From assembly GCA_944326155.1 (NCBI GenBank), contig CALVCV010000011.1, forward strand, positions 1 through 45,622: a stretch of 45,622 nt of DNA. Direction: 5' to 3'. Origin of the DNA: an uncultured Bacilli bacterium. Its GTDB lineage: Bacteria; Bacillota_I; Bacilli_A; ML615J-28; CAG-313. A program made the translations under genes and the position numbers. How positions within the stretch are numbered: position 1 is the stretch's first letter; the number at the start of each line of letters is the position of its first letter. The notes under the pieces are model-generated. The model was not told where the DNA came from, searched no databases, and saw only the letters and a program-made list of their open reading frames with translations. Of the stretch, positions 20,838 through 23,717 are shown piece after piece.

Positions 20838-21229
20838 TGAATAATTATCAATTATTAAATGGTAGCAATTTGGCCTATATTGGAGATGCCTATTATGAAT
20901 TAAGAGTAAGAATGCATTTATTAAATAAAGGAATAACTAAGAATGCTGAATTGCGAAAAGTTAGCATTAAATATGTTTCAGCTGTAGCCCACCAAAAAAT
21001 ATTTTCAAAAATTAAAAATGAGTTAAATGCTGAAGAATATACATATTTTTTAAGAGGACGTAATAATGCGCCACATGGGTATCGTAAAAATGTAAACCAT
21101 GTATCATATGTTGTTTCTACTGGCCTTGAAGCTGTGATTGGTTTTTTATATTTGAAGCAAGATACTGATAGATTAGATGAACTCATTAATAAAATTTTTT
21201 TGATAGTTGAAAGTAGTGAAGGTGAATAA
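20837..21229 (+). CDS. mrnC: mini-ribonuclease III
   Basis: 130 aa. Mini-RNase III is an RNase III catalytic domain without the dsRNA-binding domain; in Bacillus it matures 23S rRNA ends. The catalytic segment LAYIGDAYYELRVR carries D17, and RGRNNAPHG with the downstream helix matches the family. The overlaps with cysS and rlmB (TAATG on both sides) indicate tight translational coupling. Confidence 0.93.
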   Translation: MNNYQLLNGSNLAYIGDAYYELRVRMHLLNKGITKNAELRKVSIKYVSAVAHQKIFSKIKNELNAEEYTYFLRGRNNAPHGYRKNVNHVSYVVSTGLEAVIGFLYLKQDTDRLDELINKIFLIVESSEGE

Positions 21230-21954
21230 TGTATATATATGGTAAAAATGCTGCAATAGAGAGTCTAAAAACCAATCGTAATATTAAAAAAATCTTTTTA
21301 TTAAAAAAAGAAAAAGGATTTTTGAATGATACTTTAAATATGCTGATTAAGGGTCGAAAAATTGAAGTTATAGAGTTAACCCAATTAGAATTAAATACAA
21401 AATTTGGAACTAATCATCAAGGAATTGTCATTGAAGTAGAAGATTACGCGTATACACAATTAGATCAAATGATTGAAAAATTAAAAAATAAAGAGAACGT
21501 GACACTGGTTATTTTAGATGGTTTAGAAGATCCTCATAATTTAGGAGCTATTATGCGAACTGCTGATGCAACAGGTGTAGATGGAATTATTATTCCTAAA
21601 AATCGTACTGTTTCTGTTAATCAAACCGTTGCTAAAGTATCAACTGGTGCAATTGAATATGTCAAAGTATCACAAGTTACGAATTTGGTACAAACAATTA
21701 AAAAATTAAAAGCTGCTGGATATTGGGTGATTGGTTTAGATATGCAAGGATCAATCGATTATCGTAAACAAGATTATAAGGGGAAAATTGTGGTCATAAT
21801 CGGTTCAGAAGGTTTTGGCATTTCTAGGTTAGTAAAAGAAAATTGTGATTTTTTTGTCCATATTCCAATGATTGGACACATTACATCACTCAATGCTTCA
21901 GTGAGCGCAGGTATAATTTTTTATGAAATAATGCGCAATCGTTTTGAATATTAA
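21229..21954 (+). CDS. rlmB: 23S rRNA (guanosine-2'-O-)-methyltransferase RlmB-type (SpoU family)
   Basis: 241 aa. An N-terminal substrate-binding domain (about 1-75, with NHQGIVIEV) precedes a SPOUT fold. The three SpoU motifs are visible: DGLEDPHNLGAIMRTADATG, IIGSEGFGISRL, and IPMIGHITSLNASVSAGI. It uses SAM to methylate a ribose in 23S rRNA, or possibly tRNA as TrmH-like enzymes do. Synteny with mrnC supports RlmB (YacO). The yacP/rae1 gene that usually follows is absent. Confidence 0.92.
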   Translation: MYIYGKNAAIESLKTNRNIKKIFLLKKEKGFLNDTLNMLIKGRKIEVIELTQLELNTKFGTNHQGIVIEVEDYAYTQLDQMIEKLKNKENVTLVILDGLEDPHNLGAIMRTADATGVDGIIIPKNRTVSVNQTVAKVSTGAIEYVKVSQVTNLVQTIKKLKAAGYWVIGLDMQGSIDYRKQDYKGKIVVIIGSEGFGISRLVKENCDFFVHIPMIGHITSLNASVSAGIIFYEIMRNRFEY

Positions 21955-21979
21955 TGATAAAAAATAGGGGGGAATTATT

Positions 21980-22510
21980 ATTCAAAAATACAATGACAAC
22001 GAATTATTGTATTTAATTTATGAAAATGATGATTTAGCGACTGAATTATTAATTGATAAGTATAAACCTTTGATTTTATCTAGTATTAGCAAATTAAATT
22101 TAACCAAAGAAGAAAAAGAAGAGTTTTATGCAGAGGGATTAATTTATCTAGTAAAAGCGATTCATTCTTATAATGAAAGATTTTTTATGAGTTTCAATAG
22201 CTATTTTACATTGATTTTGAAAAGAAGATTTATTGATCTTTTAAGAAAAAAGAGTCATAAAACTAAAATTGTTTATTTAGATAATATTGAAGAATTTATT
22301 GTAGATAATTCAAATAAACTAGAAAATCAAATTTTAAGAGAAGATAAAATATTGTTATCTGCTTTTGAAAGACGCATATATGAATTAAAATTTATCAATA
22401 ATGAAACACCAAGAAAAATTGCCAAAGAATTAAATTGTGAAGTTAAAAAAATTTATGATGCGATTGATCGAATTCGAAAAAAACTACGTAAAAATAACTT
22501 AAATGGTTGA
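21980..22510 (+). CDS. sigma-70 family factor at the sigH locus, probable ATT start
   Basis: 176 aa if started at ATT 21980. In frame, a TAG stop lies at 21965-21967 and no ATG or GTG follows before the conserved sequence. GGGGGG (21967-21972) is 7 nt from ATT at 21980, while TTG at 22007 has no ribosome site and would remove part of region 1.2/2.1. Region 2 spans about 30-90 (FNSYFTLILKRRFIDLLRKK) and region 4 about 125-170 (ERRIYELKFINNETPRKIA, then a helix-turn-helix). Its place between rlmB and rpmG-secE-nusG is that of sigH in Bacillus. The sequence is divergent, so the regulon is unknown. Confidence 0.82.
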   Translation: MQKYNDNELLYLIYENDDLATELLIDKYKPLILSSISKLNLTKEEKEEFYAEGLIYLVKAIHSYNERFFMSFNSYFTLILKRRFIDLLRKKSHKTKIVYLDNIEEFIVDNSNKLENQILREDKILLSAFERRIYELKFINNETPRKIAKELNCEVKKIYDAIDRIRKKLRKNNLNG

Positions 22511-22535
22511 CTTTTATGTGTAAATTTAGTATAAT
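22507..22535 (+). promoter_or_regulatory. rpmG-secE-nusG promoter
   Basis: TTGACT (22507-22512), 17-nt spacer, TATAAT (22530-22535). The -35 box contains the TGA stop codon of the sigma-like gene. Confidence 0.85.
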
Positions 22536-22725: not shown

Positions 22726-23151
22726 ATGGCTGAAAAAGTTAAAGCAGAAAAGAAAAATCGTGTTGTAGAATATCTACTTGCGGAACATAAGTTAGAAAAT
22801 TATTTATTATTATTTTTAGGACTTTTTGCAATTGAATTAGGAGTTATTTTACTACAAGGTAACTTATTAACCATTCCTGAAGAAGCATGGTTAATAGGTG
22901 GGAAAACTAATACAATTGTTTTCTCATGGGTATTAATTGGTTTAGGTGCAATTTCTATTGTCCTTGTTGCATCATCGTTTTATCGTCCATCTTTTTCTGA
23001 AGTGAAACATATCACGGGCTTAAAATGGAAAGAATTTTTATGGAATGTTGTGAAGGTGGTAGTATTCTCAGTTGTTTTAGCATTATTCTTTATTGGATGC
23101 GATTTTGTAATTGAAAAAATTATTCAATTATTAAAGAATCTTTTATATTAG
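22726..23151 (+). CDS. secE: preprotein translocase subunit SecE, with two extra N-terminal spans
   Basis: 141 aa. SecE clamps SecY in the translocon. The C-terminal part (about 88-140) is the SecE core: an amphipathic helix SFSEVKHITGLKWKEFLWN, then a membrane span at 107-128. The usual Trp-Pro of the core is not present. Unlike the 60-residue single-span SecE of most Firmicutes, about 85 residues precede it with spans at 24-43 and 62-83, giving three spans as in E. coli SecE. TAGGAGG precedes the ATG at 22726. Its location between rpmG and nusG fixes the identity despite low conservation. Confidence 0.85.
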   Translation: MAEKVKAEKKNRVVEYLLAEHKLENYLLLFLGLFAIELGVILLQGNLLTIPEEAWLIGGKTNTIVFSWVLIGLGAISIVLVASSFYRPSFSEVKHITGLKWKEFLWNVVKVVVFSVVLALFFIGCDFVIEKIIQLLKNLLY

Positions 23152-23159
23152 GAGTTTTC

Positions 23160-23717
23160 ATGTATACTGAAGATACAGATAACGAAAGAGCTTGGTATAT
23201 TATTCAATCATATGCTGGAATGGAGTATGCCGCAAAGCGTAATTTAGAACGAAGAATTGTCTCGATGAATATGGAAGACTATATCTTTAATGTACTGATT
23301 CCTGAAGAAGTCCATATGGAAAAAAAGGCTAATGGTGAAATGAAGGAAGTAATTGTCAATCCATATCCAGGATATATTTTTGTTGATATGATTGTTACAG
23401 ATGAATCTTGGTTTATTGTTAGAAATACACCGATGGTTACAGGCTTTTTAGGCTCTAGTGGTGGGCGTGCTAAACCAGTACCAGTTCCGCCACATGAAAT
23501 GATTCCTATTTTAAAAAATAGTGGCATTTCTATTACAACAGATATTAAATTTGCTGTAGGCGATAAAGTTAAAGTTGTTTCTGAAACTTTTTATGGTCAA
23601 GAAGCCGTTGTTGAAAAAATTGATTTTGAAAATCAAATTGTAACAGTCTTAATAGATATGTTTGGTCGTCAAACACCAAATGAACTTCGTTTTGATGAAG
23701 TTGAAGCAATCAAATAG
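23160..23717 (+). CDS. nusG: transcription termination/antitermination factor NusG
   Basis: 185 aa. The NGN domain starts AWYIIQSYAGMEYAAKRNL and contains NPYPGYIFVDM and FLGSSGG. The C-terminal KOW domain begins FAVGDKVKV. NusG binds RNA polymerase and affects pausing and transcription-translation coupling. TAGGAG precedes the start. The stop codon lies inside a terminator stem. Confidence 0.97.
   Translation: MYTEDTDNERAWYIIQSYAGMEYAAKRNLERRIVSMNMEDYIFNVLIPEEVHMEKKANGEMKEVIVNPYPGYIFVDMIVTDESWFIVRNTPMVTGFLGSSGGRAKPVPVPPHEMIPILKNSGISITTDIKFAVGDKVKVVSETFYGQEAVVEKIDFENQIVTVLIDMFGRQTPNELRFDEVEAIK

Follow-up and report, generated by a model that had tools for sequence, protein, structure and literature searches.

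In the stretch of DNA analysed here (45,622 nucleotides in its full length, referred to as the window), a SigH-like gene of the sigma-70 family (21980 to 22510, 176 codons plus stop) probably starts at an AUU codon, at position 21980, and this codon, rare and weak as a start in comparison with AUG, would work as a translational brake on the sigma factor. Two judgements, neither of them computed, enter into this reading of the sequence: that initiation takes place at AUU 21980 is considered very probable and, given initiation there, a braking of translation is considered just as probable by analogy with known systems. What was observed is that the frame has no standard start ahead of its conserved region, that a codon of the AUU class occupies the place of the homologous start, and that a Shine-Dalgarno (SD) site precedes this codon at the proper spacing. 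The genes and sites located between 21229 and 23717 are all on the + strand.

Identity of the gene and its neighbourhood

A preliminary description of the sequence had spoken of a sigma-like gene, and this is borne out by the Pfam match of its product to sigma-70 region 2 (PF04542, 35.4 bits, above the cut-off of 24) and by the best solved relative found with a profile of 43 orthologues, which is an RNA polymerase sigma-H factor (3mzy). For sigma-70 region 4 (PF08281), the window protein scored 19.2 bits with a cut-off of 25.7, and the same family matched 17 of the 43 orthologues at E 0.001 or better. The score obtained with NCBIfam TIGR02859, the equivalog model of the sporulation sigma factor SigH, was 57.7 bits, below the cut-off of 294.8. 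So, the gene is named SigH-like and not sporulation SigH equivalog.

The gene occupies the expected position in the order rlmB, SigH-like sigma gene, rpmG, secE and nusG. The neighbours, assigned with Pfam, are an rlmB-like gene for an rRNA methyltransferase of the SpoU family (21229 to 21954), rpmG for ribosomal protein L33 (22564 to 22713), secE (22726 to 23151) and nusG (23160 to 23717). Further upstream there are two genes which, recognised by eye from the list of open reading frames, we take to be cysS and an mrnC-like gene. No anti-sigma gene adjoining the sigma gene was recognised. A promoter-like sequence, TTGACT-17-TATAAT (22507 to 22535, 11 of 12 matches), overlaps the end of the sigma gene ahead of rpmG-secE-nusG, in a region where promoter-like sites are no more numerous than in shuffled sequences. 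The idea that the sigma gene belongs within the strongly expressed rpmG-secE-nusG transcript is weakened, because this promoter-like site follows the sigma gene.

Start region and alternative readings

The sigma frame is closed upstream by an in-frame TAG stop, read directly from the sequence (21965 to 21967), and it is open from there to 22510. The stop is followed by GGG GGA, by ATT codons at 21974, 21977 and 21980, and by CAA AAA TAC AAT GAC AAC GAA TTA TTG, this last codon (22007 to 22009) being the first standard one in frame. From the TAG up to TTG 22007, there is no in-frame ATG, GTG, TTG or CTG, and the near-cognate in-frame start codons are the three ATT only. The run of six G spans 21967 to 21972, and 7 nt (21973 to 21979) separate it from the ATT at 21980 to 21982. 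The bases, the frame and the position of the G-run had been described correctly, base for base, as had the lack of ATG or GTG ahead of conserved sequence: the motif NDNELL, located upstream of and across TTG 22007, is conserved across the class, and its N and D do not vary among 43 aligned orthologues.

The sequence AGGGGGG (21966 to 21972) is a strong SD site, with a duplex of -10.4 kcal/mol when paired with the 16S tail of a congener, from which the anti-SD was taken; the assembly of the window contains no 16S of its own. The SD core is 7–8 nt away from ATT 21980 and 4–5 nt away from ATT 21977 (21977 to 21979), while in the window genes with a clear SD the spacing peaks at 7–9 nt. At TTG 22007, the pairing is essentially nil (-0.6 kcal/mol), in agreement with the earlier statement that this codon has no ribosome site. 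ATT 21980, proposed as the start in the preliminary description, was thus upheld as the best one by the SD, by its spacing and by the ATG of congener G004, which aligns exactly with it. Initiation at ATT 21977 is less likely.

Five genomes are available for the genus, the window having ATT at the start and the other four ATG, ATG, TTG and TTG. The two ATG belong to the closest relatives, G004 and G003, and are located at the same codon as ATT 21980, a place where ATG is found in 14 of the 46 orthologues compared with the window. With respect to the conservation of ATT and G-run that was to be looked for in orthologues, the run stood, since six or seven G precede the start in all four congeners, while the ATT did not, being present in one of the five genomes. 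It should be said that finding normal starts in orthologues is not in itself a sign of a sequence error in the window. As a local control, 34 window genes were tested, 33 of them with an orthologue in G004, and the orthologue started upstream of the first standard codon of the window gene in one case out of 33, that of the sigma gene. The search for a second genome of the species gave one distant locus in contigs and no match in a pattern scan of viral contigs.

The possibility that 21980 really carries ATG, and that the ATT comes from an erroneous sequence or consensus or from a minority allele, is in keeping with the ATG of G004 and G003 and with the single draft assembly (37 contigs) on which the reading of AUU 21980 rests, where one base separates this codon from ATG. 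We consider it unlikely, as it needs a specific single-base mistake placed exactly at the start codon. In addition, the replacement of ATG by TTG in two other congeners indicates that the start of the sigma gene does drift, and a like replacement is seen in other lineages, in a number of independent assemblies, among them those of all six species read in one genus. If, on the other hand, the start codon was truly lost and the gene survives as a remnant, decaying or hardly expressed, one would understand the occurrence of ATT in one of the five species of the genus. This is, however, very improbable for a gene that keeps a full-length open frame and a strong SD at the right spacing, and whose identity to the outgroup congener G002 (44.1%) is not below that of the ATG-start relatives (42.2 and 44.7%), with no sign of decay.

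The other two alternatives make use of an ATG or a TTG of the window, and the probability of either is very small indeed. TTG 22007, as the first standard start codon, would be the choice of a routine gene caller and would shorten the protein by 9 residues. It was rejected as the start because it has no SD and would split the conserved motif NDNELL. Besides, the codons upstream of it change synonymously only: when the NDNEL codons of the window were compared with those of the four congeners, the 20 codon pairs, which are not independent of each other, were 14 identical, 6 synonymous and 0 non-synonymous, to be compared with 116 identical, 62 synonymous and 182 non-synonymous for codons 5–40 in all pairs of the five genomes. 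A recent loss of the start would have left NDNEL no time to erode, so this test is weak for the window alone and strong for genus g70, dealt with below. Concerning the ATG at 21954, it overlaps the rlmB stop and opens an out-of-frame ORF of 20 codons (21954 to 22016), from which ribosomes could enter the sigma frame by a -1 shift on the G-run; the TAATG overlap and the run of six G lend themselves to this uORF or frameshift route, as a -1 slip there would join both frames. The route was nevertheless judged unlikely, since ATG 21954 has no SD (-0.9 kcal/mol), an overlapping ATG is found at the same place in none of the four congeners, and in all four the G-run occupies the SD position before ordinary starts.

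A hairpin of 11 base pairs is predicted just 3′ of AUU 21980 (21986 to 22014), with a fold z of -1.65 and 15 of 200 shuffles giving equally good folds. The NDNELLY codons favour pairing of this kind.

Start codons of sigH, rpmG and infC in other genomes

The survey of sigH starts was extended to the class, where 247 of 395 genomes searched gave a match. A portion of these matches was retrieved in descending order of score, followed by a fuller search of one genus and one order; the 177 genomes considered therefore do not sample the class at random. In 126 of these 177, an ATG occurs no more than 14 codons from the conserved ND, and in 41 only GTG or TTG occurs in that range. In the remaining 10 sigH orthologues, the conserved place has no standard start: nine have no standard in-frame codon at all, and G406 has only a TTG 17 codons up. 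The ten cases are the window (ATT), G056 (ATA or ATT), six species of genus g70, and G400 and G406 (CTG). The order of the surrounding ORFs, judged by eye, is the same in the non-standard cases. A quick tree built from 176 of the proteins requires five or more changes of the non-standard label, or four when only well-supported branches are considered. The SD median was -10.3 for non-standard starts versus -8.2 for ATG starts, a comparison that is like-for-like, as each start was picked by the best SD in every group, yet not blind; the SDs at GTG/TTG starts were also stronger than those at ATG starts. The CTG found at the sigH start in G406 (L203) and G400 (L218), which belong to another family, falls outside the usual three codons.

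Genus g70 is an unrelated genus of the class for which 7 genomes were searched, 6 were matched and all 6 lacked a standard start. The codon at the start is ATT in G103 and G349 and ATA in G319, G172, G397 and G395, and a perfect AGGAGG lies 7–8 nt ahead of it in five of the six species. The codon pairs of the ND.ELLY motif were 60 identical, 28 synonymous and 17 non-synonymous, while the five codons before it gave 15, 10 and 50, respectively. This conservation indicates that the ND.ELLY codons of g70 are translated, though no standard codon precedes them.

A similar rule was applied to the neighbouring gene rpmG at these 177 loci. The starts counted were 151 ATG and 7 GTG/TTG; 18 loci showed no rpmG, and one locus scored as having no start was discarded as a false match to the motif. 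Non-standard starts were thus found in 0 of 158 rpmG versus 10 of 177 sigH (Fisher p 0.002), and non-ATG starts in 7 of 158 versus 51 of 177 (p about 1e-9), these p values being indicative only because the genomes are related. The comparison of non-standard starts indicates that weak starts arose repeatedly at the sigH gene.

The gene infC encodes IF3 itself and is thereby autoregulated. It was present in 35 of 40 genomes of the order searched, and in each of the 30 loci read the homologous start is ATT, ATC or ATA, with no ATG. The infC of the genome under study starts at ATC, with L036 1455-1470 reading AGAGG-TGAAAGTT-ATC AGT AAA. In this infC locus and in some of the others, the SD shares bases with an in-frame GTG. 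As infC starts are of the AUU class in all the loci read, the ribosomes of the order are expected to initiate at such codons. The sigma gene of the window resembles infC in the class of the codon (AUU, AUC, AUA) and in the strong SD, and differs from it in that it would be a target of IF3 only, without autoregulation.

Possible translational control of the sigma factor

In the mechanism proposed, the strong SD (AGGGGGG) would recruit 30S subunits to AUU 21980, and the poor pairing of fMet-tRNA with AUU, policed by IF3, would let a small fraction of them proceed. As a result, little sigma factor would be made from a transcript shared with housekeeping genes. We infer both the low yield of sigma factor and its sensitivity to IF3, the latter being reasonable in view of the sigR precedent. 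That the cell uses the AUU start to sense the balance of initiation factors, as had been suggested in the preliminary description, is speculative and rather unlikely.

A literature search, with most subscription papers outside its reach, yielded Streptomyces sigR (PMC5472188) as the only earlier report joining IF3, a noncanonical start codon and a sigma factor. According to that report, sigR starts at GTC and is repressed by IF3, and a standard start in place of GTC deregulates the regulon (PMC5472188). The likeness lies in the combination of an alternative sigma gene, a non-standard start codon and a strong ribosome site; the difference is that Streptomyces is an actinobacterium in which SigR has a cognate anti-sigma, RsrA, and starts at GTC (PMC5472188), whereas the window contains a SigH-like factor with a predicted AUU start.

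In Staphylococcus aureus, one report describes two genes, cvfC1 (AUU) and ccpN (AUA), for which reporter output was about 10% of that with AUG, reaching up to 30% in rich medium for ccpN (PMC13009471). Like the window start, both are non-canonical starts of Bacilli preceded by an extended SD, and both are conserved (PMC13009471); neither gene, though, encodes a sigma factor. In the same species, sigH is held low at translation, in accordance with what is proposed here; its native start, however, is a standard TTG, and the braking is done by an inverted repeat of 13 bases in the 5′-UTR (PMC3486894). With the S. aureus and Streptomyces precedents, it is plausible that sigH is braked at translation. 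In E. coli, a change of the rpoS start from ATG to ATA is reported for one isolate (PMC12864459).

A wider interpretation can be offered only tentatively, and we lean somewhat against it. In the class as a whole, SigH-type genes might have come repeatedly under IF3-gated AUU, AUA or CUG starts behind a strong SD, a state that would have become fixed in one genus, as a selected and convergent brake setting how much sigma factor is made and coupling this production to the fidelity of initiation. Such a brake would be to Bacilli what sigR is to Streptomyces. Provided that selection acts on the weak starts, an alternative sigma factor has a regulatory element in its very start codon. Their recurrence at sigH, and their absence from the neighbour rpmG, amounts to a natural comparative experiment on the translational control of sigma.

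Since ATG, GTG and TTG are the only start codons that gene callers allow, starts of this kind are mis-annotated, with the protein truncated inside a conserved motif. In the window, the lister of open reading frames put the starts of genes 24942, 27535, 29276, 32933 and 39432 at a GTG within a GAGGTG Shine-Dalgarno site, the true start of each being probably the ATG or TTG located 6 nt past this GTG.
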